From: Nymphaea colorata
Lineage: Eukaryota > Streptophyta > Magnoliopsida > Nymphaeales > Nymphaeaceae
Length of the DNA: 64,000 bases
Assembly (NCBI RefSeq): GCF_008831285.2
Contig: NC_045143.1
Location: 3,915,503-3,979,502 of the forward strand
Direction: 5' to 3'
In this document: positions 7,193 to 57,767 of the stretch, in pieces
Layout: every line of letters starts with the position of its first letter
How positions within the stretch are numbered: position 1 is the first letter of the stretch
Made by a program: the position numbers and the translations under genes
The notes under the pieces: model-generated
What the model was told of the DNA's origin: nothing
What the model saw: only the letters and a program-made list of their open reading frames with translations
The model's database searches: none

Positions 7193-9015
7193 TCACACCC
7201 TTTTCTCTCTCTCTCTCTCTCTCTAGTCAACTGTTGTTGAGGGTCAAAGCTTTTAATGCACTATAAATGACCACAGAGCCAACATAATTACTAACTGGAA
7301 CATAATCTTTTAAACCTTTTTCTGTTTCTTTGTTTACATATGTTAAGCGATGGTAATCTAACCATTTTTTTTTTCATTTCACGGCTCCTAATATCTCTTT
7401 TGTGTCTTTCCCTAAGATTTCACAAGTTTACTTCAAACTTATTATGATTTAGAAGAAAAGATGTGATAATGACTATTTTAAGATTTAAACACAAGTTTCT
7501 TAACCGCTCAATGCACTACAATTCCTTGAAATTTAAAAGGTATTGCAACAACTATTGATTAATTTTTTAAAAAGGTTTTTGGGTTGAGAAATAAAATGGA
7601 CCCACATTCCAGCCTTTGTCTCTTGCATGGAAGGAATCCAAGCATCATGATCAACCCTAGTCACGATAAAACGAGAAAAAGCGAGAATACGTGCCATCAA
7701 TCATTTGTTCTCTACAAAAAGCGTGTGGAATTTACTCATCCCTTCACTTCCTTCAACTTAAAAAGAAAAAAACACTATATATTTATTGACTTCAAAAACT
7801 TAGTTGCAATGAAAGGTGGTCTGACCCTATTCTTTTTACTCATTATAATGGATGGTTTAGAGAAAAAAAAATTATCATTTAAGTATTAAATTGCACATTC
7901 TTCAACTTATTTTTCTTTTAATCATTATGATGAATCAGCCTCATACATAAACTGGATGATTTTAGATAACCATAGTCATCATTCTTTTTCTCTTAAGTGA
8001 TTTTAGAAAGCTAGAATCATCTATAAATTTATGTTTTTCTCCTTCACCATTGAACTTTGTATAGGAATTTGTTTAAAGTTGTATAATGACTTAGACGGGT
8101 TTCACGGAGCATAACGTAGCTGGTTGAACTAGAGACCGATATAAAGATAGGTCTTTAGTTTAATTCTTGTATGTGTTATATTCTTGTGTCTTAATGTAGT
8201 AGGACGTGACATCTAAGTTGAAGGATGTACCTTTGTTATCGTTGACACCGACGCACAGGAAGAATGAAGGGCTTTCAGGCCTTGTTTCAAGCAGTGGGAT
8301 GAACCTCTCGCTTACCTAAATGAGTTTCGCTCACCTAAATGAGTCTGCCCGTAAATGAATTTGAGTGATTTTAGAAAGCCAAGTTGAATTTGTTTAAAGT
8401 GGTTAGTTTAAAATTTTTCTTTTTTTTTTAAATTAATGCTCTCTTTATCCAATAAATTGAAAACAAACGCACACTCAAAAGGCACAGCTCTCTCTCTCTC
8501 TCTCTCTCTTTTGTTTATCTACACACACAAAAAACAAACATGGCCTCATCGCTCACGCTAGCTCATTCCCATTTACTAATCTTATGACGTGATGTGGTGG
8601 TGTAGGGTATGAGTCGAGATGTACAAGTTGGAAGACGGCAGGTTTTATGCGCGGAGAAACTTTTGGCCCACAGATCATTAGCCGTGGGTTTGCGGCCTCT
8701 TGTATCATATGTATTTGTATTCTCCCACCATTTCATAAGTAACAATAATGGTTTAATATTTTTCAAATGGGTTCTGATTTCCTTTTCTTTCAGCATCCTC
8801 ACTGTTCCATTTTAAAAATATATAGGCTTTCCAATCTCTCTCTCCCTGTCGTATTTAAATATTTTAAACAAAAATGATAACTATAAAAAATAAAAGAAAA
8901 AAGGCAAATGACAAAGTGAACCATAGTTCAAGCTGGGTTAGTGCTTTTATAAGTGCCATAACACATACAATATATTTATAAATGAAAAACTTGGAACCCT
9001 TAACTTTTTCTTAAA
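7193..9015. other. intergenic with short CT microsatellite
   Basis: CT tracts lie just after the EG45-like stop codon (about 7205-7225) and at about 8489-8510. Otherwise the sequence is AT-rich with no recognisable gene. Frames at 7584-7889 and 8563-8815 have no family signature. Confidence 0.5.
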
Positions 9016-9023
9016 AACCTAAT

Positions 9024-9230
9024 GTTGAAGTTCTGAGCTAATAATAGATGACAAAAATGTTTAATCTCTCTGTTCTCTCTAGTTTTCAATCAATCACCAA
9101 TTGAAAAAAAAAAACAAAAAAAAAAGGTAAAATGATTCCTTATAAGTCTAACTAATAACAAAGAGTCCAACACCTAATATATATTTTATGTTACCATTGT
9201 CAGATAGCTAAAAATAAAAATATATCATTA
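9024..9230. repeat. segment duplicated at 27938-28135
   Basis: The sequence from GAAGTTCTGAGCTAATAATA through AGATAGCTAAAAATAAAAA matches 27938-28135 in the same orientation, with small indels around the A-rich tracts. At 27.9 kb it is fused directly to a copy of sequence from 14.87 kb, so this block is part of the 9-28 kb rearranged domain. Confidence 0.75.
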
Positions 9231-9654
9231 AAAAACTGCCAGCTATTACTATTAGTAATGGTTTATGATGCAATAGCTGTTCATGATGTATTTATCAATG
9301 ATTCATAATATTTTTATTGACGAATACTTGATTTTTAGCAAACATACAGCACATCGAAGCACGTGTGTGTGAGGAAGACTTCATTTTAAAAAAGAAATGA
9401 CTTGTGTGGCTTCATTTATGACCTTGGTGGCATTTAGTTTCATTAATGGTACTAGTGTTGTCATGAATTCTATGTGGAAGACCGTGTAATATTATGTTTG
9501 TGAAGATGGAGGTCGTCCGAGGCAATAAATGACTGGGTTTTAATTTCTTTTAGTTGCATGCACTCTGTTTCGGAAACCAGTGTTCGGGGTACGTGTGGGC
9601 ATAATGTAGGCAATGTACATAAAAGGTATTTATTTTCGTATTGAAACTTCATAT

Positions 9655-9830: not shown

Positions 9831-10819
9831 TAACTCCAGTGACGCCGTATACAATTTATCGTGATGCCTTTCCTGTTGGATGATGAGGCAGAGGCAGTCC
9901 TTGTGCCAATGTTTGAAAGAAGGGAACACATAGGACGCGGCCAAGGATTTTCATGGTTGGAACACCAAAAAGTTGTTCCTTTGTATTTGTGTTAGCAAGA
10001 CGTGTTTCGGATGCTTGTTGTTCGAACGAGCTTGGAGATTGAGTTTTTTATTTTTTTTCAAGGTGAGTAGTTGTTCTTCCACACCGTGAAAGTTGTAGCC
10101 CAACCCCTGCATTGCTCGCCTTTTGGGGTGCACAGAGCATGCTTCATAACATTTTATGATCCAAATAAATAGTGCATTGGGTGAACGACTACGATCATAG
10201 GTTTCATAACAAGGACCCCATGAACCCCACTGTGGCTGTTTTGCCTCAACCTTTTGTGTAAGTAGTAGTATATCCGACGTCATCGGTTCCAAACCCCACT
10301 GTGGCTGTTGCACTGATAGTGCTTGTAAGGTAGCCTCTAGGCCTACTTGAGTCGGTTCAGTGGTCATGGTAACTTGGCCGTCACCTTCTTCTTTGGGAAA
10401 AGTCAGGGACACGTTATTAAGGAGGCATGTCGACATTGGAGAGTGAAGAAGATTTCTCACGCGAGCCATGTTTTACAACAATATTGAAAAATTTGCCACA
10501 TTGCATTAAACAAATGAAGGTTGAAATAATTTACAGTTAAAAAAGCCAGTTTAAATGTCCGTAATAAATGTTGGTGAAATCGGCACATAAGTGTCAAATT
10601 GGCTCATTTGCAAACAATAACAAACAGGCTACTAGGGTTAGGATTTGCTCCTTTCCTCATGATCCGAGAACGAACCTCGAACTCGAACCAAACAAAATTT
10701 GGAGGGAAATAGCGGCAGCAAGAGTTATTCAGCCAGTGGCAGCATTTTGGTCATTTCACAGAGTACGAAAGTCTTTGCAAGGCAGGCACTTTAGGCAACT
10801 GATGTGAGTTGAAAAACAT

Positions 10820-10875
10820 CTTTTTTCCCTTGATGATCCACTTGAAAAAACCGCTCAAATGAATTCTTGATGATA
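10820..10875 (-). pseudogene. XS-domain gene fragment in left arm
   Basis: Read on the minus strand, this gives NSFERFFQVDHQGKK-like sequence. It matches residues about 188-202 of the XS protein encoded at 18203-19682 (NSFERSFQVDHHGKK). Only this short stretch of the XS domain is present. Confidence 0.75.
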
Positions 10876-10904
10876 ATACATGCTTCCCCAGTCATAGAGA
10901 GGAC

Positions 10905-11012
10905 TCTATAACACTGGTGATAGGTGTATAAGGGAGCATCTGCGGAAGCATGTATTATCATCAATAATTCATTTGAGTGGTTTTTTTAGGTGGATCATCA
11001 AGGGAAAAGAAA
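10905..11012 (+). pseudogene. XS-domain gene fragments in loop and right arm, scrambled
   Basis: The plus strand first encodes DRCIREHLRKH (residues 228-238 of the XS protein) and then NSFE..F.VDHQGK (residues 188-201). The parent gene has these in the opposite order about 30 residues apart. An internal stop replaces the Gln of FQVDH. This is a rearranged, non-functional copy. Confidence 0.75.
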
Positions 11013-11807
11013 ATACGTTTTTCGACTCACATCGGTTGCCTAAAGTGCGCACCTCGCGGAAACTTTCGTACTCTGTGATATGATCAAAATACCGCCACTG
11101 GCCGAACAACTCTTCCCGCCACTATTTCCCTCTAAATTTTGTTTGGTTCGAGTTTGACGGTTCGTTCTCGAATCATGAGGAAAGGAGGAAATCCTAACCC
11201 TAGTAGCCTGTCTGTTATTGTTTGTGAAGGAGCCAATTTGATAAATATGTGCCGATTTCACCAACACTTATTACAGACAATTAAACTGTCTTTTGTAACT
11301 GTGAATTATTTCAACCTTCATTTGAGTTTCCTCCGCACAAGTTGGCTGACGAGTGCAGCAAAATGAATGCGATGTTGCAAATTTGTGAATATTGTTGTAC
11401 AACATGGCTCATGAGAGAAATCTTCTTCACTCCTCAATATGGACACTTCTCAAAGGTTGCTAGGGCGTGTGCACGTGTTCGTCCACGACACTCATTTGAA
11501 AAGAGCCACTGTTGCTGCTCAAAGTTGCGTAAATTTTTAATTCTTTCCTTTCGATACCAGGCATGCTGTAATTGGACAACCTGCAACTTCTTTTTTATTT
11601 ATCTTTGTGAGGTTCTTTACGTTTCCACACTCTTCGACTGATCGCTCACCAGCAGTAGAAGAGTGTTTAAGTGCTGATATTGTGCATTCAAGTGCTTATC
11701 TCTTATTAAAATCGCTTTTCCAGCTACAGATTCCCTAGCAGAGTGAGGGAGACTGGTAGTTTTTCATCCACTAGTGAGGATAGTGATCAAGCTTTGCACA
11801 GGTGGGG

Positions 11808-12217
11808 ATGTCGTCTGGTTCAGATGATTATAGTGATCTTAGTGAAGGGGAAATCGAAGAGTGAGTGGAAAAGCTATACAAGGAATTGAAGGAGAAGAAT
11901 GTCATCTCTAATGTCTTCATTAGGTGCCCCTACAGCCTAGGGAGGATGAAACATGATTACAGATACAAGGATACAGCCTAGGGAGGATGAAACATGATTA
12001 CAGATACAAGGATATTCTTCAGCATGCAACAAGAGTTAGGAACTCCAACAAGAGATTGAAGGAAACCGCGAGGCACGGGGCACTGACGAAGTTCTTGCAG
12101 TTGGATTTCGTAGAGAAGCTTGCACCTTCGGTTACACCTTCATTTCCAATATTTGTTCCATCATCCAATAGATTCAAAACCACAACTGCTGGCTTAGGGA
12201 GTGCAAACCCACTCTGA
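11808..12217 (+). pseudogene. XS-gene zf-XS fragment, broken
   Basis: The ATG at 11808 begins MSSGSDDYSDLSEGEIEE, nearly identical to the start of the XS protein at 19682, then hits TGA. Further on come VEKLYKELKEKNV, RCPYSLG (second zinc-binding Cys changed to Ser) and a 41-bp tandem duplication (from 11931) that shifts frame. After it the frame resumes as LQHATRVRNSNKRLKET through FLQLDFVEKLAPSVT to about 12217. The stop, frameshift and lost Cys make it a pseudogene. Confidence 0.85.
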
Positions 12218-12487
12218 GTCTGAGTCTAGTAGCAGGTAAAATGGTGAAAGGTTCAACAACAACACTTTTTTTTCCTTCTAAAATCAACCAACCCTATCAA
12301 TAAATTATGGTTGTGCTTTCTCCTAAAGACACCGTACTTGGTTCTTGATAAAATGGAGCAAATGGGAGCGGGCGGCTCTGAATTTTTATTTTTTAATCAG
12401 ATACCATCTTCTTCCGCTTTGTGGTGCCTTATTTCAATGTTCTCATTGATCACCATGCTTAGCCTTATTTGCCATTTCAATCGTACA

Positions 12488-12490
<3 letters not shown>

Positions 12491-12559
<69 letters not shown>
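12491..12559. repeat. (CT)n microsatellite
   Basis: About 34 CT dinucleotides with one TT interruption. It creates Ser-Leu and Arg-Glu repeat frames on the two strands that are not genes. Confidence 0.95.
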
Positions 12560-12596
12560 GTTGTGTGGATAGATATCAAGCTTTGTGTAGGAGGGG

Positions 12597-12690
12597 ATGT
12601 CGTCTGGTTCAAATGATTACAGTGATCTTAGTGAGGGGGAAATCAAAGGGCAAGTGGAGAAGCTAACAAGAAAACCAAAACTGACCAATA
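12597..12690 (+). pseudogene. XS-gene 5' fragment fused to inverted upstream sequence
   Basis: The ATG at 12597 gives MSSGSNDYSDLSEGEIKG then QVEKL, matching the XS protein N-terminus. At CTAACAAGAAAACC (12662) it switches to a copy of 19703-19800, which in the parent gene lies upstream of the ATG and in the opposite orientation. The piece is a fold-back chimera of coding start and antisense upstream DNA. Confidence 0.75.
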
Positions 12691-13204
12691 AAATTGATGA
12701 TCATGAAAATGATTGCAACAAACTTTAAAACTCAAACTGGGTTAAACAAGCTGAGGCAGAACACTCCCCACAAAGTATATACGAGGAGAACATCTACTTT
12801 GCAACCAAATCCAATAGCTATAGCGTTGCATATGCTCTTCCCCCCACCATTCACCCCTCTCAGCATATGTTATACTCGTGCACTTAACAAGGAAAAAAAA
12901 GAAAAACATTTGCAAATACAAAGTAATACGACTACCACTGAACTCTAAACAGTTTCATTTGCCATGGTGACTCTAGAAACCAGAGTATAAAATGATACCC
13001 AAAAGAAATCGTCCAGTTCTTCAAAGAACTGCAATGATGCAATTCAGAAAACAAGCAGTGCACAATATCTGAGAACAGGAATACCTCCGGTATCGATGAT
13101 TACGATGCCCTTAGAAACTACTGGATGCACAACTCCTGGACCACTACTATAAAAAGGAAGAATAAAGTATAACCCGGTTTGAAGGTAATCGTCCGGTTGG
13201 ATAG

Positions 13205-13206
<2 letters not shown>

Positions 13207-13269
<63 letters not shown>
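13207..13269. repeat. (GA)n microsatellite
   Basis: About 31 GA dinucleotides. The duplicate at 26380-26403 has only about 12, so the tract changed length after duplication. Confidence 0.95.
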
Positions 13270-13270
<1 letters not shown>

Positions 13271-14872
13271 CATTGACTCTAAGTAGGACTGCGTGAAGAA
13301 AAATTTGAAGAGGTCTTGTAATGAAAGCATGAGATTTAATCTAGTTGTACACCACGGAAGGCCACCATTGGCCTTAAGGATCATATGGTATGACTTGATA
13401 TTTATACCTTCTTTTTGCAATAATCTCTAGGCATGTCTTTAATTTTTTTTACAACTCTGGGTCGCTAAATTTCTTTGTTGATAGCGATGCAATTATTATT
13501 TTTGTTGGTTTCTTTATTTTTGTAGATTATCATTTCCTTACAGTCAATAATAATAACATTTCTTTTGTTAAGCAAAAATGTTAATTGCTTTATATAACAT
13601 CAACATTATTAGATTTGATATTTATACTCTTAGTTTACAATAAGGTCAAGAAACTTGATTTTTTTTTTGCAAATTCAGGTGGATGACCACACTCGTTGAT
13701 AACAATGTTATTATTATTTTTATTACATCTTTGCTTTTATAGATGTCATTCACTTATAAGTCACCACATTATCTTTAGCATTAATAATGTTTCTTTTATT
13801 GAGAAGATTTTTTTTATAACACTAAATCTCTCCATTTTCACCTTCAAGACATACTTGAAGAATCCAAGAGATCATATTTGATATTTTTAAATTCAAATAT
13901 AGATATTTGATTACTAACAAGGATTTAAAATTATTTATTTAAAAAATTCAAAAATTGCAGCATATATTCATAATTGTTGATTTAAATTAGCCGGAGAACG
14001 ATCAATTTATGGGAATAAAAATTCACACATGACATAAACCACTTTTTAAGGGAAACAACATATATAAAATTCACATACATATAAGAAACTAAAGGTTTTC
14101 TTTAAAAAAAAGCAATCAAAGAACAAGACACCACATAATGCACATCAAATATCCGGTCAGTTTGAGTAAAGAAGGTATTATTTTTAGTTTGGGTTTGCTC
14201 TTCACAAAGTAGTAAAACTTCAAATGGGTTTTAGCAATGCATATTACCAATACAATGCAAGGAACCATTAAAGGTTCATTTTGCCAAACCAATTGCAAAA
14301 AGTTCAATAAAAATTAAAGCAGTCAACAACCCACTGTCCCAAACCAATTTCCAAAATCCAAACCCAAACTCTGTCCATGTGTACAAGGGATGCCAACTTC
14401 TACACATGCATGATTCAATATTTTATACATATTTATCACCTAGTTCCTTTGGTTTACGTCTTTCATCTTCAGACACTCTGAGAGTGTGTTTGACAATTAA
14501 CCTCATATTTTAATTCCAAAGCTGATCTCTTTTACGTGGGATGCATCCCACAATGGAAACAAACACTGGATTTTACTACTATGTGAAAAAGAGGATTTGT
14601 TTTCTAGGCATTTATCGCAAAAAACATGGGATTTAAGGTTGACTAGGATGAGATCTGTCCTTAGTTCTGCCCTTAAATTCATGAATCTGAGATTCCAGTG
14701 ATCTCGAATCTGAGTTTACCATGCGCTCCATAAAGGACTTCACTTATTGTCAAACATAAATTTTTGTTCATCAGACAAACAACATGCAGATAAGTGCACA
14801 TAAAGTAGAAACAATTGATCATTGATGTGACTAGCAACGCCTTCATGGAGGCTGTGTTGTAAAAATAAGGCG

Positions 14873-17672
14873 TCCCATCGAATTTGCCAATTCACATGGA
14901 GCAGCAAAAATAGTCTCCTATTTATTTTTAAAGAACAATTGAAAATATGCATACAAATAATTAAAAAATCTAAAACAGAACAAAAAAGAATCATAACACA
15001 CTACTGTTAAGTGGGCTGATAAATTAAATTAAATCGGTCTGCTATCAATTTGCTTCGACTGCATTAATTCATGCGGAAATTCAATGAAACAAAATTTCCA
15101 ATTGAAACAAATAATGATACCGTTCATTTCCATTTTTCCAGAAAAGCATACAATAGAACAGGCTTTGCTATCAACTTTTTCGATTTAACAGCTAAATATT
15201 TCAATTTCTCGTTCAACATAAATTCTATAAGTATGTTTACACCTAATCATGGTGCTTAACACTTTGACTTACTCAAAAACGATAACCGCAATTTCTTGGT
15301 ATTCTGGTGGCTATTGGGAATGAGCACACGGAGCTCAAAACCACGGCGACGACAATGATGGCGTCAATCGATGGATGAACCCCGACTTCCGCAGTTACCA
15401 TTCCCACATCAGTAGAACAGGAGAGAGAGAGACCTAATGTCGATGGCAAGCAACCGGCGGCCACGGTCTCCCTCGCAGGAACGGCTGGCTGCTGTCGGGA
15501 GTAACTGTGCGAGAGGGAGAGGGAGAGGAAAGGTCCAGGTGTGATGCGACTGAGAGACTTCTCGCCGTCTATATCAGTCAGGTTAAATCCTTCTCCTTCC
15601 GATCGGGGACGATACCGACGGATCATCGGACTTGCAATCCATGGATTTTAAATTTTACGTTTGTTAGCGTATGGATCAAACGACAGGCTAACAAACACGA
15701 TTAAATAGGCTAGGCTTGTGCGGTTGTGCTCTGAGAGAGATTTGTCTGGTGAAATAAGAAAACATTTAAAAATATATTCCAGACAGGAGTCTGGCTGAGC
15801 CCAGTTTTGCTTACTGAAAAATAAGGGATAAAAACAAATAATATTGTCGCTTTATGTAGCAGTCTTGGTCACAAATTTTAAACGGCTAAAACGTCACTGT
15901 TATTATCATGTTAATTTGAATAACCCCATCATCGTTAATAGATTTTTTTAATACATTTTTGCTGTGTCCCCATTGATATCTGGTGAAGTTTTTTCAAGTA
16001 TGCTTGTAGACGTGGCCACTGGCCATGTTGCATTTGTCACTACGTAGGCCCATTATACGCATGGAAATGATTCTCCCATGTCCAAATCTGGCAACATATT
16101 TTATTAGCAAGAAGCGAGAAGAAAAAAGAGCTTGAAAATAAACGAAGTGCGATGGATCAAGCAAATGTAAAGATGCCTTGAGCTTAATTACTAATCCATA
16201 TGCAGTTTCGTAGTTGACTATGAACCCGTTCTTGATATAAAGATCTGATCGAATTACAAATAAAAGTTGATTTTTTGTTTAAAAATAGAGTTTGAGATGC
16301 AAATCCAATTATATAGAATCTAGTTAATCGAATTCAGTAAAAACTGAATGGGGCCAGAGTCTGAACGGAACTTAACAAGGCCAATTTCCTTTCTATGATG
16401 ATGAAAGACAATTTCCGGATATGGATGACATGTTTTTGGATGATGGAACACAAAATAAAGTTCTCAGTTTGGTAGTTTTACGAGCAACACCGTAACAGCT
16501 TAAGGGACTGTTTGGCAGCAGAGACACTTTCCACGTATCTCACGAACTTGCACCAAAAGTTGGGGTATATACATGAGAGATTAGTTTTAGCGTTCTATGA
16601 ATCTGTCTAATTTTTTTGGCAGATTCATGAGACATTCCATAATGCCTCTGATGTCAAACACCCTCTAAAGGTACATCTTAATTCAACTTTGATGGAGGGA
16701 CAATCTCTTACTGCCAAAACCCGCCTTCTCTCGACAACTTTGTTTGAGTTTAAAAACAGCAGCAAGTTTACAATATGAGTAGAGTCTGAAACTCATGCTT
16801 TTAGCAAGCATGAGCCATGCATGCAAACCACACGCAAAAGAGCTCATTTAGGTGGTGCTTGATCAGAGCAAGTAATATATATTATATAGTCCTCAACAAG
16901 GGACAATGTGTTATGAGCCCAAATGACTAAAATGACCCTTCTAGTTGAATGAAAAACTTTTCCCTAATAAGGGCAAAAATGAAACTTTGAATTTTTGTGC
17001 TTCATAAGTAGGACCTTCCATAGACAAAAAACTTTTGTGCTTCCTTCTAAAGATTTTCCTGAACAAAGGAAAATTAATTGATGAGATCATAAAATTTCAA
17101 GATAATGCAACAAGTTTCCTATGAAAGGTAAACTAATTGATGAGATTATGAAATTTCAAGATACTGAAACAAACTTCAAGTTCAAAATGGCAAGAAAATA
17201 ATGACTAGGACTTTTACGAGTTTCCCTCTTTCCCTAATTCACGAGTCCTTTACATTGTCGACCTTTTAGCAGTTAGAAGTCCCGAATAGGACTTTTAGGT
17301 GGCGTTTGAATCACACTCTCAGGAAACTTGATTTTTTAAATCAAGTTTTGTGAATATCTAAACAAAAAGACTACTTTTAAAAACCTAGTTTGAATGTTTG
17401 GGTGACGACAAAAATACTTGAGGGAGATGAAATTCAGTTTTGTCAGAACAACTTGAGGATAAAAAGGTGAGTGCACTTCAAATGGTGTTGTGGGGGCAAG
17501 TATAAAAACCAAGGCATTCAATGCCACATAAAAGCCCAAGCATGACCCCAAAACTTTAGCGGAGAGTCGTGCCAAAGCACATCCTTTAATTTGACTTATC
17601 TGACACAGAGAAATGCTTGTTTAATTTGCTGGAGGAGTTTCAAAGCTAAACATGGAAAGGAAGAAATCTTAC
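14873..17672. other. intergenic, no gene supported
   Basis: A GC-richer patch at about 15290-15620 with a CT-rich stretch looks like a minus-strand first exon or leader (possible frame MVTAEVGVHPSIDAIIVV), but no family is recognised and no downstream exon found. An imperfect 59-bp tandem duplication lies at about 17070-17190. A possible MITE-like pair of ends (CTGTTTGGCA at about 16510, TGTCAAACACCCT at about 16652) has no target duplication. The minus-strand frame at 17336-17575 may hold decayed aminopeptidase sequence, but this is unsure. Confidence 0.4.
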
Positions 17673-18005
17673 ATTAATCAAGCATGACAAAACAGTGTAA
17701 TCGAGTTCATCCCTGTATGCATCCATCAAGATGAGCAAAGAGGACAAGGACTGCTTGCTAGCTCTACACAGAGCATATGAGTCATCCAAGATACCTGAGA
17801 GAGCACAGACAATTGATGTCATAAGGAGACATATAGCTGTACAAGTGCGCAAATATCCCTCTTATTTACCAAATCGGTCTGTTGCAGTTAGGCACTTTGC
17901 CTCTGCTGCAATTCTAAGCATACTGGAAAGCTCATCATCGTACTTCACCCTGTAAAAGCCAGTTTGCTCAATGTTAACCTTCAACCAAGAGCTTCGCATA
18001 AAAAC
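17673..18005 (-). pseudogene. aminopeptidase M1-like, two isolated exons
   Basis: Exon A (about 18005 to 17870) encodes SSWLKVNIEQTGFYRVKYDD then ELSSMLRIAAEAKCL and TDRFG. A 75-bp GT-AG intron follows, then exon B (17794-17673) encodes ILDDSYALCRASKQSLSSLL followed by YRDELDYTVLSCLIN, ending at a GTAAG donor. These match the start of the C-terminal (ERAP1_C-like) domain of plant aminopeptidase M1, an M1 zinc metallopeptidase. The reading frame and splice sites are intact. The catalytic HExxH domain upstream and the remaining C-terminal exons downstream are missing, and the XS gene's last exon lies only about 200 bp away on the same strand. It is therefore a captured or left-over fragment with no aminopeptidase activity possible. 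Confidence 0.8.
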
Positions 18006-18202: not shown

Positions 18203-19682
18203 TTACCCCTGTTCCACATCCTTTGAACTAGTCTGTGCAGCATCTGAACCATCACCAATATCCAAAAGGGCAGGAGGAGGCTTTTTCTGCTCAGGGTGAA
18301 CGGCAATTCCTGAAGCAATTGCATCATGTCAGTGGGAGGTGAACCGTTGCACTCCACAACTCAAAGACGGGAGAAAACTGAAAAAGGGGGGACAAAAAGA
18401 GAGAAGGAAGAGGAGAAAAAACAGTGTTTCATGTTGGATCCCCTAATAAGCATTTTAACGAACAGTTAATCCATAGAAGCTGCACATAAATCTGTAACAT
18501 GTAAAACTTTAACCAAATGTAAATGGAAAAAGCCGGTGCACAGACAACCGGAAGTCCTTTGGCTTGCGTGGCATGTGTGAAATTTAAAATATCAAAACCT
18601 GTTGGCTGTAGTTACCAAGAAGAATCAAGAAAGAAGTAAAACATGATTAAGCTAAGACAGTAAGATGCTATCTAATTCGCACATTAATTCCACAGACGGT
18701 TAACACTTGACTCTCATTTCTCGCATAAAGTCCAGAAATGAAGGAAACCAAATTGAGGGAAAGGAAAATAAAAAGGTCGACATATGGAATAACCTTCTTC
18801 GAGAGAAGCCTTAGTCTGCTGCAATACATATGTAACCTCTTTCAGCCGCATCCCAGATGATTCCAAATCCTTGTTCTTTAAATCTATCTGTTGTTTAAGC
18901 CCATCTACAAGGATATTTTTCTTCCGTTTCTCCTCATCTTCGAGCTCAGTAACAGTTCTGAGTTCACCATGCTTCCGCAGATGCTCCCTTATACACCTAT
19001 CAGTACTGTTGTAGTCATCCTCACGAGCCATCCACCCATACATGCTTGATCCATGCCCTCGGAATTCAACCCATTCTTTTTTCCCGTGATGATCCACCTG
19101 AAAAGACCGCTCAAATGAATTCGCACTGTGATACCCACTCCACAACCTGTTAAATTCTATAATGGCCGTCCCCCGAAAGCCGTTATAATCCCACAACGGA
19201 TAAACTCTTATGGGATTGAACCAAGCAAACTCTTCTTTCAATCTGGATGCAGTAGCAAAGTGTTTACCATCCTTCCCCCTGGCCTGGATATTCACAACGA
19301 TTCCCATCCAAGGCCAAACAAAACGCTCCTCCTGAGCATCCTTTTTGAAACGTTTGGATGGTGGAGCAGATCTTGGAAATGAATGTGTAACCGAAGGTGC
19401 AGACTTCTCTATGAAATCCAACTGCAAGAACTTCGCCAATGCTCGATGCTTCACGGTTTCCTTCAATCTCTTGTTCGAGTTTCCAACTCCAGTTGCATGC
19501 TGAAGAAGATCCTTGTATTTGTAATCTTGTTTCTTCTTCCCAAGGCAGTAGGGGCACCTAAGGAAGCCATCAGAGCTCCCGGTGAAGACATTCTTCTCCC
19601 TCAATGCCTTATATAGCTTCTCCGCTCGTTCTTCGATTTCCCCCTCACTAAAATCACTGTAATCATCGGAGTCAGACGACAT
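18203..19682 (-). CDS. short XS-domain protein (SGS3/FDM family-like)
   Basis: Two exons, 19682-18794 and 18309-18203, join in frame (codon split G|GA) to give 331 residues. An acidic start (MSSDSDDYSDFSEGEIEE) is followed by a zf-XS zinc finger (RCPYC at 42-46, LQH near 60-62). The XS domain spans about 119-232 (WPWMGIVVNI, LWDYNGFRGTAIIEF, YGWMAREDDY), and a coiled coil begins at about 240-293. Proteins of this family (SGS3, IDN2/FDM1-5) bind double-stranded RNA with 5' overhangs and act in siRNA production or RNA-directed DNA methylation. FDM proteins normally continue with a long coiled coil and an XH domain. Here a 35-codon last exon (IAVHPEQKKPPPALLDIGD then GSDAAQTSSKDVEQG) ends the protein. 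The start at 19682 is preferred over one 13 codons upstream because the acidic N-terminus matches the family and a splice acceptor (TTTGCATAG) precedes it, suggesting an intron in the leader. Missing the XH domain, it may be a truncated paralogue. Confidence 0.85.
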
Positions 19683-20051
19683 CCCTCCTATGCAAAGCAG
19701 ATCACCTAACAAGAAAACCAAAGGTAACCAATAAAATTGATGATCATGATTTACAAATTACAACAAATTTTAAAAACCAAACTACGGAAAACAAGTCCAC
19801 TTAACAGTATTGAGCTTTATGATTATTTTGATATGTTTCAGATATTTTAACTATTTGTACGTATATTGTCAATTGTTCCTGTCTTTCTCACTTGTCCTTT
19901 CAAAGATATTTTGGGCACCTGAATAACAATTTAGCTATGTTTACAATTTAATCTCAACCATCTAACATCATTGGAATTAGCTGCTCAGCCTACCAAGTAT
20001 GGTTTATGTGGGTCCGGTAGCTACTTGTTTTCTCTCTCTCACAATATCTAC

Positions 20052-20118
<67 letters not shown>

Positions 20119-20240
20119 ACTTCATTACCGAGACTTGTTAAACAATAAAGCTCATTACATCCCTTAGAACAAAAAAAATTACAGAAGGTACACGGCAGTG
20201 GAAATGCCACCAATCAATTTGCGAGACAGAAATCTCGGAG
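19683..20240. other. upstream region of XS gene with (TA)n tract
   Basis: 19703-19800 is the segment copied in inverted relation to the coding sequence at 12662-12770 and 25870-25960. A (TA)n microsatellite occupies about 20049-20114. No gene on either strand. Confidence 0.7.
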
Positions 20241-23200
20241 ACAGAAACTAATGAAATGCATAAAGGCTTTCCAGAATTTTGGCATAAATCACATGTTTCT
20301 CAATGAGAGTCACGATATACTTGACAGTTGACACATTATGACCTCAAACCAGCAGCAACTTCAATCAACAATTGACTTTTCAATAGTAACCCAAACTTTA
20401 TAAGTTGACACATGGCACAAAAGGTTCTAAAACAGAGATAAAGAAATAAAATAAAAGGCCATCAGAGGGAGTCTGCTGGCCCCTTCTTCGTTATTTTCAT
20501 GTCCAAGTTGGGCATATTGAAGCTTAAGGTAATGAGTTAGGCTGATTTTTATTAAACATTCCAGTAACATGGCCTTGTACAAGTTCTTTTCTTTGTTTTC
20601 TGTTTCACCAACCATCATATTAGAGAATGATAGGAGTAAACTCAGAGATGAGACGATATAGAAGAAAACGTGGATAGAAGGAGAGAAAGAATGAGTAACC
20701 TCAGAGATGCGCGGTGCCTTCAAGCGGTGACAGATGCTGGTGGCGTCTGGGATAAGATGTTTTTAGACAATCTCGAAGACAGAAACTAATGAAATGCATG
20801 AAGGCTTTCCAGAATTTTGGCATAAATCACATGTTTCTCAATCAGAGTCACGATATACTTGACAGTTGATACCTTATGACCTCAAACCAGTAGCAACTTC
20901 AATCAACAATTGGCTTTTCAATAGTAACCCAAACTTTGTAAGTTGACACATGGCACAAAAGGTTCTAAAACAGAGATAAAGAAATAAAATAAAAGGCCAT
21001 CAGAGGGAGTCTGCTGGCCCCTTCTTAGTTATTTTCATGTCCAAGTTGGGCATATTGAAGCTTAAGGTAATGAGTTAGGCTGATTTTTATTAAACATTCC
21101 AGCAACATGGCCTTGTACAGGTTCTTTTTCTTGTTTTTTGTTTCACCAACCATCATATTAGAGAATGATAGGAGTAAACTCAGAGATGAGTTGATATAGA
21201 AGAAAACGTGGATAGAACGAGAGAAAGAATGAGTAACCTCAGAGATGCGCGGTGCCTTCAAGCGGTGACAGATGCTGGTGGCATCTGGGATAAGATGTTT
21301 TTCGACAATCTGGGAGACAGAAACTAATGAAATGCATAAAGGCTTTCCAGAATTTTGGCATAAATCACATGTTTCTCAATGAGAGTCACGATATACTTGA
21401 CAGTTGACACATTATGACCTCAAACCAGCAGCAACTTCAATCAACAATTGACTTTTCAATAGTAACCCAAACTTTATAAGTTGACACATGGCACAAAAGG
21501 TTCTAAAACAGAGATAAAGAAATAAATAAAAGGCCATCAGAGGGAGTCTGCTCGCCCCTTCTTCGTTATTTTCATGTCCAAGTTGGGCACATTGAAGCTT
21601 AAGGTAATGAGTTAGGCTGATTTTTATTAAACATTCCAGCAACATGGCCTTGTACAGGTTCTTTTTCTTGTTTTTTGTTTCACCAACCATCATATTAGAG
21701 AATGATAGGAGTAAACTCAGAGATGAGTTGATATAGAAGAAAACGTGGATAGAACGAGAGAAAGAATGAGTAACCTCGGAGATGCGCGGTGCCTTCAAGC
21801 GGTGACAGATGCTGGTGGCGTCTGGGATAAGATGTTTTTCGACAATCTGGGAGACAGAAACTAATGAAATGCATGAAGGCTTTCCAGAATTTTGGCATAA
21901 ATCACTTGTTTCTCAATCAGAGTCACGATATACTTGACAGTTGACACATTATGACCTCAAACCAGCAGCAACTTCAATCAACAATTGACTTTTCAATAGT
22001 AACCCAAACTTTATAAGTTGACACATGGCACAAAAGGTTCTAAAACAGAGATAAAGAAATAAAATAAAAGGCCATCAGAGGGAGTCTGCTGGCCCCTTTT
22101 CGTTATTTTCATGTCCAAGTTGGGCATATTGAAGCTTAAGGTAATGAGTTAGGCTGATTTTTATTAAACATTCCAGTAACATGGCCTTGTACAAGTTCTT
22201 TTCCTTGTTTTCTGTTTCACCAACCGTCACATTAGAGAATGATAGGAGTAAACTCAGAGATGAGTCGATATAGAAGAAAACGTGGATAGAACGAGAGAAA
22301 GAATGAGTAACCTCAGAGATGCGCGGTGCCTTCAAGCGGTGACAGATGCTGGTGGCGTCTGGGATAAGATGTTTTTCGACAATCTGGGAGACAGAAACTA
22401 ATGAAATGCATGAAGGCTTTCCAGAATTTTGGCATAAATCACATGTTTCTCAATCAGAGTCACGATATACTTGACAGTTGATACCTTATGACCTCAAACC
22501 AGCAGCAACTTCAATCAACAATTGGCTTTTCAATAGTAACCCAAACTTTATTAGTTGACACATGGCACAAAAGGTTCTAAGACAGAGATAAAGAAATAAA
22601 ATAAAAGGCCATCAGAGGGAGTCTGCTGGCCCCTTCTTCGTTATTTTCATGTCCAAGTTGGGCATATTGAAGCTTAAGGTAATGAGTTAGGCTGATTTTT
22701 ATTAAACATTCCAGTAACATGGCCTTGTACAAGTTCTTTTCCTTGTTTTCTGTTTCACCAACCATCATATTAGAGAATGATAGGAGTAAACTCAGAGATG
22801 AGTCGATATAGAAGAAAACGTGGATAGAAGGAGAGAAAGAATGAGTAACCTCAGAGATGCGCGGTGCCTTCAAGCGGTGACAGATGCTGGTGGCGTCTGG
22901 GATAAGATGTTTTTCGACAATCTGGGAGACAGAAACTAATGAAATGCATGAAGGCTTTCCAGAATTTTGGCATAAATCACATGTTTCTCAATCAGAGTCA
23001 CGATATACTTGACAGTTGATACATTATGACCTCAAACCAGCAGCAACTTCAATCAACAATTGGCTTTTCAATAGTAACCCAAACTTTATTAGTTGACACA
23101 TGGCACAAAAGGTTCTAAAACAGAGATAAAGAAATAAAATAAAAGGCCATCAGAGGGAGTCTGCTGGCCCCTTCTTCGTTATTTTCATGTCCAAGTTGGG

Positions 23201-23430
23201 CATATTGAAGCTTAAGGTAATGAGTTAGGCTGATTTTTATTAAACATTCCAGTAACATGGCCTTGTACAAGTTCTTTTCCTTGTTTTCTGTTTCAGCAAC
23301 CATCATATTAGAGAATGATAGGAGTAAACTCAGAGATGAGTCGATATAGAAGAAAACGTGGATAGAACGAGAGAAAGAATGAGTAACCTCAGAGATGCGC
23401 GGTGACAGATGCTGGTGGCCTCTGGGACGA
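20241..23430. repeat. 538-bp tandem array, about six units
   Basis: The marker ACAGAAACTAATGAAATGCA begins at 20241, 20779, 21317, 21854, 22391 and 22929, a spacing of 537-538 bp. Units are nearly identical, so the array is recent or homogenised. Each unit contains on the minus strand a mostly open frame (KAPRISEVTHSFS...IHVFF). The start of that frame contains CATCTCTGAG followed by GTTACTC, a possible exon end and splice donor. The last unit (to about 23430) runs into unique GC-rich, CT-rich sequence on the same strand. The short frames in each unit are unlikely to be genes. Confidence 0.95.
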
Positions 23431-23596: not shown

Positions 23597-24808
23597 TGAA
23601 GTTCTGGTCTCTTTCTATAATCAAAGCCTTGTGATTTTTTTTTTTGTTCATTCTAAATGTTTCGACCCTTAGTGCTAAATTCAGAAAACATCTCAATGGA
23701 TCAACAACTGGCTTTTATTATTGGATAATTGTTCAACAACTTTGAAACTCTAATTAATGGTGAGACTTCAACTCTCAAATGCGCCATTGAAGTGAAAGTC
23801 ATTGTCAGATATTGCAGTTTTGATTAATGAATGTCTTTCTCTTTATTGTCGAGCACTTAACTAATTACAGAAAGTTTCTTGAGGAAGTGCCTGCTGAGCT
23901 CTTTAGCAAAGGATGCCCATTTTCAGAAAGTTTCTTGAGGAAGAGCCTGATATTTTCTCTCGATATTTTTCTGAATTTAGCACTAAGGGTCGAAACATTT
24001 CGAATGAAGAAAAAAACTTAAATCATATGGACAGGTTGCAACCGTGTGAAGCGGTAGAGGGAGAGAGAATCAAGGAGCAATGGTGCCGTCCAGCGTGGAA
24101 TGTAATCAATGTATATTATTTTATCATTTCAACTTTAAAAATCTTATTTTCAATCAATTTGCCAATTTTAGATCTTGCATCCAAATAATTTGACCACATA
24201 GTGAGCTGTCTTCAAATTTTATTATTATGTTAATCATGCTTAAAATTATTCTGTGAAGAGATAGAGAAACTTAATTTATGTACATATAAAATAATATAAT
24301 TTTCATTAGTCACTAAAAGTCTGTGCTTGTTTATTTGGTAAGAACCAACTTAGTTATAACATTCAAAGTAACTGAAGCAATATCGCACAGGGTAGTCCTG
24401 CGGTTAGGCAGACGTCTACTGAATGAACTAATGATAATTACAACAATAAGAGTCTGATATTTTCTCCCGATATTTTTAAAATGGGCATCCTTTGCTAAAG
24501 AGCTCAGCAGGCACTTCCTCAAGAAACTTTCTGTAATTAGTTAAGTGCTCGACAATAAAGAGAAAGACATTCATTAATCAAAACTGCAATATCTGACAAT
24601 GACTTTCACTTCAATTGCGCATTTGAGAGTTGAAGTCTCGCCATTAATTAGAGTTTCAAAGTAGTTGAACAATTATCCAATAATAAAAAGCCAGTTGTTG
24701 ATCCATTGAGATGTTTTCTGAATTTAGCACTAAGGGTCGAAACATTTCGAATGAACAAAAAAAAAAATCACAAGGCTTTGATTATAGAAAGAGACCAGAA
24801 CTTCACCT
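23597..24808. repeat. inverted repeat with ~330-bp arms
   Basis: The left arm (23597-23925) and right arm (24478-24808) are reverse complements, for example TGAAGTTCTGGTCTCTTTCT against AGAAAGAGACCAGAACTTCA. The spacer of about 550 bp contains a further partial copy of arm sequence (about 23932-24010, TTTAGCACTAAGGGTCGAAA). No transposase is visible. Either a non-autonomous element with long inverted ends or a rearrangement product. Confidence 0.85.
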
Positions 24809-24842
24809 GACCATATGTTCTGAAACATCCTGGCTGTATAAC

Positions 24843-25085
24843 AGGAAGAGTTATACAGCTAGTGGCGGCATTTTGGTCATTTCACAGAGTACAAAAGTTT
24901 CCGCAAGGCGCGCCCTTTAGGCAACCAATGTGAGTCGAAAAACGTCTTTTCTTTTCCCTTGATGATCCACCTGAGAAAAAACCGCTCAAGTGAGTTCTTG
25001 ATGATAATACATGCTTCGGCAGTCATAGAGAGAACTCTATAATATAATACATGCTCCCTTCTACACCTATCACGGTATTATAAGG
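24843..25085. repeat. third, truncated copy of the XS-containing inverted repeat
   Basis: This matches the left arm at about 10715-10905 in the same orientation, including the minus-strand XS fragment (FFLRWIIKGK region, about 24957-25000) and the TGATGATAATACATGCTTC loop flank. Most of the right-arm region nearest the loop is missing, and homology resumes at 25108. Confidence 0.8.
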
Positions 25086-25107
25086 TAGCATGTTTTATAG
25101 AGCATGT

Positions 25108-27936
25108 ACTATTTTCCTCCAAATTTTGTTTGGTTGGACTTCGATGGTTCGTTCTCGGATCATGAGGAAAGGGGGAAATCCTAACCCTAGTAGGCCTGTT
25201 TGTTATTGTTTGCGAAGGAGCCAATTTGATACTTATGTGCCGATTTCACCAACACTTATTACGGACGGACATTTATACTGGCTTTTGTAACTGTAAATTA
25301 TTTCAACATTCATTTGTGCTTCCTCTGCACAAGTTGGCTGACCAGTGCAGCACAAAATAAATGCGATGTCACAAATTTGTCAATATTGTTGTACAACATG
25401 GCTCGCGAGAGAAATCTTCTTCACTCCTCAATATGGACACTTCTCAAAGGTTTCTAGGGCATGAGCACGTGTCCGGCCAGGACACTCATTTGTAAGAGCC
25501 ACTCTTGCTGCTCAAAGTTGCGTAAATGTTTAATTCTTTCCTTTGGATACCAGGCATGTTGTAGTTGGACAACCTGTAACCTCTTTTTTTTTTAATCTAA
25601 GTGAGGTTCTTTACGTTTCCACCCTCTTCTATTGATCGCTCACCAGCAGTAGAAGAGTGTTTAAGTGCTGATATTGTGCATTCAAGTGCTACTCTCTTAT
25701 TAAAATCACTTTTCCAGGTAGAGATTCCCCAGCAGAGTGAGGGAGACTGGTAGTTTTTCATCCGCTAGTGAGGATAGAGATCAAGCTTTGCGTAGGTGGG
25801 GATGTCGTTTGGTTCAAATGATTACAATGATCTTAGTGAGGGGGAAATCAAAGAGCAAGTGGAGAAGCTAACAAGAAAACCAAAACTGACCAATAAAATT
25901 GATTATCATGAAAATAATTTACAACCAACTTTAAAACTCAAACTGAGGAAAACAAGCCGAGGCGGAACACTCTCCACAAAAGTATATATGGGGAGAACAT
26001 CTATTGTGCAACCAAATCCAATAGCTACAGCGTCGCATATGCTCCTCCCCCCCACCATTCACCCCTCTCAGCATATGTTATACTCACAAAGAAAAAGAAA
26101 GACTACCGCTAAACTCTAAACAGTTTCATTTGCCATGGTGACTCTAGAAACCAGAGTATAAAATGATACCCAAAAGAAATCGTCCAGTTCTTCAAAGAAC
26201 TGCAATGATGCAATTCAGAAAATAAGCCGTGCACAATATCTGAGAATAGGAATACCTCCGGTATCGATGATTACGATGCCCTTAAAAACTACTGGATGCA
26301 CAACTCCTGGACCGCTACTATAAAAAGGAAGAAGAAAGTATAACCCGGTTTGAAGGTAATCGTCCGGTTAGATAGCCAAAGAGAGAGAGAGAGAGAGAGA
26401 GAGGTCCTTGACTCTAAGTAGGACTGCGTGAAAAAAAGTTTGGAGAGGTCTTGTAATGAAAGCATGAGATTGAATGTGGTTGTCCACCACGGAAGGCCAC
26501 CATTGGCCTTAAGGATCATATGATATGAATTGATATTTATACTCTCTTTTTGCAATAATCTCTAGGCATGTCTTTAATTTTTTTTACAACTCTGGGTTGC
26601 CAAATTTCTTTGTTGATAGCGATGCAATTATTATTTTTGTTGGTTTCTTTATTTTTGTAGATATCATTTCCTTACAGTCAATAATAATAACATTTCTTTT
26701 GTTAAGCAAAAATGTTAATTGGTTTATGTAAGATCAACATTATTAGATTTGATATTTATACTCTTAGTTTACAATAAGGTCAAGAAACTTGATTTTTTTT
26801 GCAAATTCATGTAGATGACCACACTCATTGATAACAATCTTATTATTATTTTTATTACATCTTTGCTTTTATAGATGTCCTTCTTTTATAAGTCACCACA
26901 TTATCTTTAACAATAATAATGTTTCTTTTATTAAGAAAATTTTTTTTATAACACTAAATCTCTCCATTTTCACCTTCAGGACATACCTGAAAAATCCAAG
27001 AGATCATATTTGATGGTTTAAAATTTAAATATAGATATTTGATTATTAAAAAAGATTTAAAATTATTTATTTAATCGAGAATTGCATCATATATTCATGA
27101 TTGTTGATTTAAATCAGCCAGAGAACGATCAATTTATGGGAATATAAATTTACATACGGCATAAATCTCTATTTTAAGGAAAACAACATATATAAAATTC
27201 ACATACATATTAGAAACTAAAGGTTTTCTTTCAAAAGAGTAATCAAAGAACAAGACGCCACAGAATGCACATCAAATGTTCGACCAATTTGAGTAAAGAA
27301 GGTATTATTTTACTTTGGGTTTGCTCTTCACAAAATAGTCAATGTTCAAATGAGTTTCAGCAATGCATATTACCGATACAATGCAGAGAACCTTTAACAA
27401 CAATGCATATTACCAACACAATGAAAGACCCATTAAAGGTTCATTTTGCCAAAACAATTACAAAAAGTTCAATGAAAATTAAAGCGGCCAACAGCCCACT
27501 GCCTCAAGCCAAGCCCAAAATCTGTCCAAGTGTACAAGGGATGCCAACCTCCACACATGCATGACTCGATATTTTATACATATTTATCACCTAGTTCCTT
27601 TGGTTCACATTTTTCATCTTGAGACATTAAGAGTGCGTTTGAAAATTACACTAGATTTCAATTCCAAAGCTGATCCCTTTTAAGTGGGATGCATCCAATA
27701 GTGGAAACAAACTCTGGATTTTACTACTATGTGAAAAAAGAGGATTTGTTTCCCATGCACTTATTGCAAAAAACATGGGATTAGAGGTTGAATGGGATGA
27801 GATCTATCCTTAGATTCATGAATATGAGATTCTAGTGATCTGGAACCCGAGTTTACCAAATTCTCCATAAAGGACTTCACTTATGATTGATGTGACTAGC
27901 AACGCCTTCTTGGAGGCTGTGTTATAAAAACAAGGC
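25108..27936. repeat. segmental duplication, copy 2
   Basis: Direct copy of 11105-14872, lacking the extra zf-XS unit and most of the CT/GA expansions. It ends at about 27936 inside GGAGGCTGTGTTATAAAAAC, where sequence switches to a match with 9024-9230. No intact gene. Confidence 0.85.
25802..25890 (+). pseudogene. XS-gene 5' fragment, copy 2
   Basis: The ATG at 25802 gives MSFGSNDYNDLSEGEIKE then QVEKL. It switches at CTAACAAGAAAACC to inverted XS upstream sequence, exactly as in 12597-12690. It therefore shares the same fold-back junction and derives from it by duplication. Confidence 0.75.
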
Positions 27937-29575
27937 TGAAGTTCTGAACTAATAATAGATGACAAAAATGTTTAATCTCTTTTTCTTTTTAGTTTTCAAT
28001 CAATCACCAATTTGAAAAAAGAAAAAGAAAAAACAAAAGGTAAAATGATTCCTTATAAGTTTAACTTAGTCTAACACCTAATATACATTTTATGTTACCA
28101 TTATCAGATAGCTAAAAATAAAAACATATTATTAAATTATTTTTACATACTATATTAGAATAAATTGCACATAAAATTTTACATTTTTGTTATATAGAAT
28201 AAATTATTTTTTTAAATTTACATCTAAATTATTTATCAAAAAAAAGTTGAAAGGGGCGAGCATGGCCCCCACCAGCCCTCTTGCCTCTGGCCCCAATGTA
28301 GGTTTTGTATCAGCCAATACCTTAACGAGTAGTTTGATAATAATAACAGCAATGTTTCATGTATGTCTCAAAGATAAAAATATGTTCATCATGAACCAAT
28401 AACATGTTATTACTATACTATTGCCAAACATCTGCTAAGGAGTTCTGTTAGATAAAAGCATTAGTTCTAGTGTTTACTAAATTTACCAAAATTTTTGAAT
28501 GTGATTTACGTGACACTCACATAGTATCCTTAATGTCATATACAATTGAATCCAAATTTCATTAGGGAAAGTAAGTTTTAAAATATGTAATTTGAGTTTG
28601 ATTAGACATTTATTTAAAACCAAATCCGAACATTTAAACTTGCATTGGAAGAAAGAGATGTTAACAACACAACACTGCGTCAAACAATGGAAAATGCACC
28701 TCAGCCGTACCCTTTTCAGTCGCAACTTGGGTAAAGGCGATGCAGTTGTCAACGGATATGAAATCCCGCAAAATTTTGGGATCGACGGTCTGGGAGTCCA
28801 ACCGTAGATCGAGTACGACGGACGGTGGATCTTGAAACTCGAATCAGCATCACTTCTCGGCGTCATCTTTAGGCTGACGAGATCAGGAAGTTAATCTCTC
28901 CCAAGGATTAAAAATCTTAAGAATGGAAAGTGCAAGGAAGTTTCAATGGGTTGACAATACTTGATCAGTTCTATTCTCCACTTGATGTGCACTGAAAAAA
29001 AAAATATTAACTGACAAATGAGAGAGAAATTTTCATTTTAGGAATTACACTTACTTTTTTCCTAAAAATACAAAAAAAAAGAAACCTTTTTGTGTTTTTA
29101 TTAAAAACCACATTTTTTGTTAAAATTATCAAACAAAAAGCTTGGGCTAAGGTAAAGAAAATAATTCAGTTAAATATTGAAGAAAAAATTTGCAGTTTAT
29201 TATCTTGTAAAAAAAAACATTTTTGGATATTCTCTATCAGAAAAAAATAAACAATCTGATAAATAAATAATTTTATACAGAAAAAAAAAATTTACATCTT
29301 CCTTCCTAAACCAATGGTGTTAATCGCAACCGTCAGTTGGATCCATCGGACGGCGGAGGCGAAACGGCTGACGACGAGAATGGGTCCCACCTGCCACGTA
29401 TACAAGTAATGACGAATCGAGAACCGTCTGGACTCGCTCATCCCGTGGAATAAAAAACCCGAGGGGCAAGAGGGCGCCCCGATGGACTGACCACCGGAAA
29501 TTCGTCGCCGTTCGCTCCTCGCCGTCTTGATCCTCTCCTTCCGTCTCCAATCCGCAGAGAGAGAAATAGAGAGAG
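27937..29575. other. upstream region of the ERDJ3A-like gene
   Basis: 27938-28135 copies 9024-9230. A GC-richer patch at 28720-28870 has no recognised coding content. The 200 bp before 29576 are GC-rich and end in a GA-rich leader. They include TGCCACGTA (29392-29400), an ACGT-core motif, in the likely promoter. Confidence 0.5.
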
Positions 29576-45323: not shown

Positions 45324-53147
<7,824 letters not shown>

Positions 53148-57052: not shown

Positions 57053-57767
57053 CCACCAATACTCGCCTAAGAAACCAACTTCTCCCGCTTCTCTCGAATC
57101 AAAGGACGGAGTTGCAGAGTCGGTTGATCAGGGGAAGAAGAGAGACGCCGAGGACGGTGGTGGGTTGCCGTTTACATATTGGAACGGGCAACGAGGTGTG
57201 AACGCAACAGGGAAGCAACGAAGAAAGGCCGCAGTTGGTGGAGGGAGCCCGCCGTCCGCCGCGACATCTCTTAATTGCTCTTTTGGACGCCGCAAACGCG
57301 TTTCTGTTCCCACGGTGATCGGGTCGAGCACGGTAGCTTTAAGGAGTTCCGGAGCCTCACCGACTCTGCAGTTTGACTATAGGATTCAGACGTACTCTAT
57401 GCTCGACTCGATTCTGAATCCCTCGCTTTTTCGCGGTGACCAGTCGTCAGGCTCAGTGAAGTGGAGGACCAGCTCTTTACCTGTTATGACACTTGGGTGC
57501 TTGATCATTGGGGGCATTGCTATTCAACGGATCCGCAAGCACAAAAAGCTCATCCCCCTTACTGAAAAAGTAAAAAGGAATGTGCACCTCCTCAACATTA
57601 GGGGGGGAAAATTGGTGTCATTTTTTGACTTTTATGATGATTTAAAGGTGGACGGTTAAGGACGAGGGGAGTTTCGCGCTGTTGGCCTTTCTCTCAATCC
57701 AATACCAGACTTCTTCCTTCAGTCAACGTCAAAGTCCACCGCCATCGGCAGCTTCTTTCAGAATACA

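Follow-up and report, generated by a model that had tools for sequence, protein, structure and literature searches.

A decaying composite palindrome with pieces of an XS gene in the Nymphaea colorata genome

The long palindrome found at nucleotides 10428–11445 of a 64,000-nt stretch of Nymphaea colorata DNA (C6:3915503-3979502, hereafter the window; genome of 408 Mb in 783 contigs) is probably a decaying composite inverted duplication, generated as a by-product of local rearrangement and now devoid of a selected function. It is composite in sequence, its arms are inverted duplicates of each other, a second copy of the block that holds it lies elsewhere in the window and its stem has decayed. 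A first-pass annotation had presented it as a hairpin that could act against a nearby gene with an XS domain. The structure is real, was partly misdescribed there and is ordinary in kind. It illustrates clearly how tandemly copied genes, stray sequence and an inverted duplication can combine into a hairpin that mimics a designed silencing locus; it resembles such a locus, yet it shows no sign of upkeep.

Geometry and composition of the palindrome

A repeat search, a BLAST self-match and an alignment of the arms confirmed the inverted repeat. Nucleotides 10428–10891 (left arm, + strand, 464 nt) pair with nucleotides 10940–11445 (right arm, − strand, 506 nt), and between them lies a 48-nt loop (10892–10939; repeat search and BLAST), the right half of which is largely XS-derived. 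These values replace the earlier figures of about 480 bp for the arms and 57 bp for the loop. In the repeat search the pairing is resolved into four collinear blocks with complementarities of 91, 85, 85 and 93%, the innermost arms being 48 nt apart. The repeat is not near-perfect, as had been stated: the global alignment of left and right arm gives 411 matches, 53 mismatches and 63 gap columns, that is, an identity of 88.6% over 464 aligned columns with the gap columns left aside. When 10428–11445 is aligned to itself by BLAST, gaps counted, the value is 79% over 1066 columns. The longest exact runs of the stem in the arm alignment are of 23 and 21 bp.

The proposal that a transcript would fold into long double-stranded RNA agrees with the predicted fold of the + strand RNA, which is one long stem, mostly double-stranded, of −674.4 kcal/mol (an absolute value calculated without a shuffled reference). 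The palindrome thus provides what is expected of an endogenous inverted-repeat siRNA locus in one respect, a long inverted repeat whose RNA can fold into a stem-loop. Identity with a known RNA family was rejected, as no Rfam match at gathering thresholds was obtained in the window. Inverted repeats were also searched in 221 kb, made up of the 64-kb window, 80 kb of C4, 67 kb of C6 and 10 kb of C10. With a filter of 80 columns and a spacer below 3 kb, 22 inverted repeats were retained (18 in C4, three in the window, one in C6 and none in C10). Large inverted repeats are thus not uncommon in the scanned sequence, a sample which is not random because the C4 stretch was picked for its match to the arms. 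The palindrome is the longest one listed in these 221 kb; the next ones measure 678 and 600 bp.

Most of the arm sequence does not come from an XS gene. In both arms about 85% of the sequence (some 394 of 464 nt on the left and 431 of 506 nt on the right) matches five places in C4:25.41-25.48 Mb (25.411–25.477 Mb; local BLAST), C4 being another contig of chromosome scale, and we refer to it as C4-type sequence. By BLAST and alignment it spans nucleotides 10418–10821 (+ strand) in the left arm, where it extends about 10 bp past the end of the palindrome, and nucleotides 11015–11445 (− strand, inverted) in the right arm. This homology of the bulk of both arms had been overlooked in the first-pass annotation. 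In three aligned C4 loci some 600 bp of additional sequence split the homology at 10630/10631. Read on the reverse strand, this block starts with GTAGAG after CTAGTT, has AG before CCTG or CCCG and is intron-like. The arms may conceivably represent a spliced retrocopy, but the junction of the hairpin at 10630/10631 does not match an exact splice of the C4 block. At both C4 places tested, the C4-type matches lie upstream of ORFs with an NT-C2 domain (28.4 and 26.5 bits, against a Pfam cut-off of 25.2). A search of the genome with nucleotides 10420–11450 gave at least 34 matches, located on C4, C6 and C10; among the matches listed, the ones on C10 and at other places on C6 correspond to XS genes.

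The XS content amounts to two pieces of exon, of 47 and 50 nt (together 97 nt of gene sequence), located at the tip of the stem and in the loop. The prior claim that both arms and the loop contain XS fragments is borne out by three BLAST matches to the XS gene of the window: nucleotides 10819–10866, antisense on the + strand, match 19075–19122 (93.8%); nucleotides 10906–10952, in sense, match 18968–19014 (91.5%); and nucleotides 10966–11014, in sense and out of gene order, match 19073–19121 (87.8%). Along each arm, the order of the two exon pieces is reversed relative to the gene. The longest exact match is of 35 nt (10918–10952), 22 of which lie within the loop. In the left arm, about 52 nt (10817–10868) are antisense to the window XS gene; none of the 21-mers of this stretch matches the gene exactly, while seven differ from it at one position and 21 at two.

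To quantify these similarities, the 998 21-mers of the hairpin were compared on both strands, at most two mismatches being allowed. Matches to the window XS gene amounted to 59 of 998, whereas 20 random window segments of equal length gave none each, so the XS homology is beyond chance. For the other XS genes the counts were 59 (C6:3852.9k), 24 (C6:3857.6k) and 28 (C10); for the second copy of the palindrome, 539; and for the five C4 loci, 30, 215, 245, 160 and 87. On these counts the donor of the XS pieces cannot be named, and XS genes are a minor part of the possible targets. The window gene had been regarded as the parent; its paralogue at C6:3852.9k, about 82 kb away, matches equally well, the same 35 nt being exact in both. 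That a double-stranded RNA would match the XS gene stands for the 52-nt antisense stretch; that the hairpin is mainly XS does not, with 59 matching 21-mers as against 539 for the second copy.

The XS gene and the broken copies around the palindrome

The XS gene of the window (18206–19705, − strand) comprises an exon coding for zf-XS and XS (Pfam) and a predicted short last exon at 18206–18307, the splice model being our own reading. The exon at 18717–19757 (− strand) encodes the whole of both domains (Pfam). The gene had been called intact, which it is not. No match to the coiled-coil exon of its paralogues (C6:3851.0k, C10:392.0k) was found in the window, and none of the 12 genome matches listed for the XH domain falls there. 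It resembles the FDM/IDN2 family in having zf-XS and XS and differs from it in that coiled-coil exon and XH were not detected (family as described in PMC3342958 and PMC8872474). XH is needed for the function of IDN2 (PMC3342958) and of FDDM1 (PMC8872474); since the window gene lacks it, a role in silencing or RNA-directed DNA methylation (RdDM) is doubtful, and so is its earlier designation as an RdDM-type gene. From its domain content it is best called a 3′-truncated FDM-type paralogue.

Compared with the C6 paralogue, it shows a dN of 0.052 and a dS of 0.232 over 297 codons; the ratio of 0.22 indicates purifying selection in at least one of the two lineages. Parts of XH are found at C6:3844.4k and 3846.7k, on the same strand as the XS exon at C6:3852.9k. 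One C6 XH match has an internal TGA in the matched stretch, perhaps an intron edge, and for this reason the C6:3852.9k paralogue is not taken as proven whole. Downstream of the window XS gene, nucleotides 17590–17997 are 96.8% identical to C6:3870782-3871189, a recent duplication; their ORFs give a weak match, below cut-off, to an aminopeptidase C-terminal domain (ERAP1_C). Upstream of the gene there is a tandem array (20231–23427) in which a unit of roughly 537 bp occurs about six times. The units are 95–97% identical, and one of them matches C6:3853962-3854488, upstream of the C6 paralogue.

XS fragments had been placed in the arms and the loop, where they are indeed present; further ones occur just outside the palindrome. 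A degenerate 5′ part of an XS gene, from the start codon region to the zinc finger, lies at 11783–12179 (+ strand; BLAST), its frame being broken by an exact 41-bp tandem duplication (11931–12012), and another 5′-end piece, or head, lies at 12580–12665 (+ strand; BLAST). Adjoining these heads and inverted with respect to them, nucleotides 12663–14807 (− strand; BLAST) match C10:389566-387508 (79%), directly upstream of the start of the C10 XS gene. A splice-acceptor-like sequence can be read before the XS start codon, and the block probably corresponds to a 5′-UTR intron plus upstream sequence. The window XS gene lacks about 2.2 kb of this block between 19794 and 19795. That an XS promoter in inverted orientation drives the hairpin leftward was considered and rejected: the block seems to consist of an intron and upstream sequence, including the roughly 2.2 kb missing from the window XS gene, so we make no promoter claim for it. 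A reading in terms of bacterial-type promoters and terminators was also discarded; promoter-like sites were fewer than in shuffled sequences, and such a scan is uninformative on plant transcription.

A second copy of nucleotides 10716–14747, partly deleted and rearranged, is located at 24842–27884 (+ strand; BLAST). It retains one inner and one outer arm which do not pair, and no inverted repeat of at least 20 nt was found within 24700–25700. Another inverted repeat (23597–24805), with 328-bp arms that are 98.5% identical and a 554-bp spacer, ends just before this copy begins and looks like a young terminal-inverted-repeat element. Nucleotides 9012–9232, to the left of the first block, match 27925–28136, to the right of the second one (87%), an arrangement as if the block belonged to a longer tandem series.

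Decay of the stem and origin of the palindrome

Three internal tests give no support for maintenance of the stem. Arm mismatches that are G:U-compatible number 17 on the + transcript and 18 on the − transcript, so there is no preference for one strand. Conservation of the stem is not higher over its XS part than over the remainder (Fisher p 0.31). The second copy, as described above, no longer folds. Divergence is 0.125 between left and right arm and 0.082–0.117 between the arms and the second copy; these values are near a star, from which it follows that the events were close in time and that the arms drifted afterwards. A tree built from both arms, the second copy and three of the C4 loci is compatible with either order of the inverted and the block duplication. 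Derived substitutions number 23 and 26 in the arms versus 13 in the second copy (p 0.043), a comparison in which the inner block, half of the columns, is without outgroup. Of the C>T changes in the arms, 15 of 23 are at CG, and the C>T share is not significantly higher (p 0.36). The excess of arm changes, with C>T mostly at CG, would fit methylation, although the result is weak. The CpG observed/expected ratio is 0.78 in the hairpin versus 0.65 in the window; the hairpin is not depleted.

We favour a decaying composite duplication because the arms, mostly C4-type, are only 88.6% identical and carry 63 gap columns; because the XS pieces are swapped in order and the neighbouring XS heads are broken or inverted; and because G:U pairs are unbiased, the second copy is foldless and Rfam gives no match. 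The rank of the palindrome as the longest one listed, the excess of substitutions in its arms and its exact runs of 21–23 bp count against this reading. In the sequence of events that we propose, C4-type sequence would have been joined to two scrambled pieces of FDM-type XS exons at a place on C6 where XS-gene copies stand in tandem, and head-to-head duplication of this composite would then have produced the palindrome. A copy of the block bearing it would have arisen at a distance of about 14 kb and would since have lost its palindrome. We infer that the structure arose through DNA repair involving template switching and not through transposition. No short direct repeat of the kind left by target-site duplication was seen, by eye, at the flanks of 10428 and 11445; this, together with C4 homology continuing about 10 bp beyond the left end, makes the ends of the palindrome unlike those of a transposon. 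The locus appears to have no selected function now, absence of function being something that sequence cannot demonstrate. Should a read-through transcript cross it, Dicer-like enzymes could cut the hairpin into siRNAs of 21–24 nt, most of which would match the hairpin itself, the second copy and the C4 loci.

Alternative readings and comparison with known systems

Long inverted arms enclosing foreign gene pieces could also denote a non-autonomous DNA transposon, of Mutator type or foldback, with long terminal inverted repeats and captured gene pieces, and there are other inverted repeats nearby, such as that at 23597–24805 with arms 98.5% identical. The features of the ends just mentioned, namely no visible target-site duplication and C4 homology running beyond the left one, speak against it; moreover, the captured XS sequence sits at the tip with no unique interior, and the matches of the palindrome, at least 34 on C4, C6 and C10, are XS genes on C10 and elsewhere on C6. 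We consider a transposon decidedly improbable. An unlikely reading, to which we nevertheless accord some weight, is an endogenous inverted-repeat siRNA locus without XS specificity, in which a read-through transcript would be diced and the resulting siRNAs would methylate the hairpin and its second copy, perhaps also the upstream regions on C4. The predicted fold of −674.4 kcal/mol is suited to this, at no more than two mismatches the second copy accounts for 539 of the 998 21-mers and the best C4 locus for 245, the excess of arm changes with C>T mostly at CG points the same way, and endogenous long stem-loops of Arabidopsis are described as being diced by DCL2, DCL3 and DCL4 (PMC4687873). What weighs against it is that the stem shows no sign of upkeep (mismatches of 17:18; fold lost in the second copy) and that CpG is not depleted; in addition, a start site in the C4-type block, if present, would make the arms fire outward, and no hairpin RNA would be produced.

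The first-pass annotation had gone further and proposed a young small-RNA gene, born by inverted duplication and regulating XS/FDM genes. In its favour, XS pieces do occupy both stem and loop with 35 nt exact, the antisense stretch of about 52 nt in the left arm provides seven one-mismatch and 21 two-mismatch 21-mers, and there are precedents for partial inverted gene copies that silence their parent (as reported in PMC9636151 and PMC7048303). Yet the pieces are only two and amount to 97 nt, the stem strand tested has no exact antisense 21-mer, the exact part is mostly loop, the stem is not conserved more strongly over its XS part, and the presumed target gene is without XH. We therefore regard such a regulator as improbable. 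Silencing of the window XS gene by the hairpin is a possibility that these observations do not positively support, and a self-targeting silencing loop would be a testable but weakly grounded idea. Even smaller is the credence that we give to a chimeric hairpin linking the RdDM-type family to the NT-C2 cluster of C4 through the siRNAs of one transcript. If that link were true, the siRNAs would match FDM-type XS exons (in the window, at C6:3852.9k, at C6:3857.6k and on C10) as well as NT-C2 upstream regions, and the strength of silencing at the C4 cluster would be coupled to the supply of silencing factors via a decaying hairpin.

Among known systems, the palindrome is akin to IR71 and IR2039 of Arabidopsis in being a long imperfect stem-loop within one transcript unit's worth of DNA, for which dicing would be possible without an RNA-dependent polymerase; as described in PMC4687873, those loci are transcribed and diced, whereas the hairpin reported here is known from its sequence alone. 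Populus ARR17 (PMC9636151) and persimmon OGI (PMC7048303) likewise involve inverted gene pieces away from a full gene. In both, the repeats correspond to the target gene and yield small RNAs against it; here, in contrast, the arms are about 85% C4-type. The boldest case would be that the hairpin acts as the inverted copies of ARR17 or OGI do and silences its parent (PMC9636151; PMC7048303). The inverted-duplication model for MIRNA genes, as set out in PMC3237417, also has the hairpin arise when a segment of a gene or pseudogene is duplicated in inverted orientation. It differs in that arms derived from the target gene are expected, and at this locus, documented as genomic DNA, the duplicated segment is itself chimeric, with arms of about 85% C4-type sequence. 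If small RNAs were found, the locus would exemplify the birth of a hairpin with chimeric target content, one of its possible targets being a member of a family that plays roles in RNA-directed DNA methylation.

Elsewhere in the window, a 492-aa ORF at 55652–57127 (− strand), set in a GC-rich stretch, has a DDE_Tnp_4 transposase domain (Pfam), which, by the name of the domain, we take to be of the PIF/Harbinger type. Pieces of a protein kinase gene (Pfam) are found at 50757–52874.
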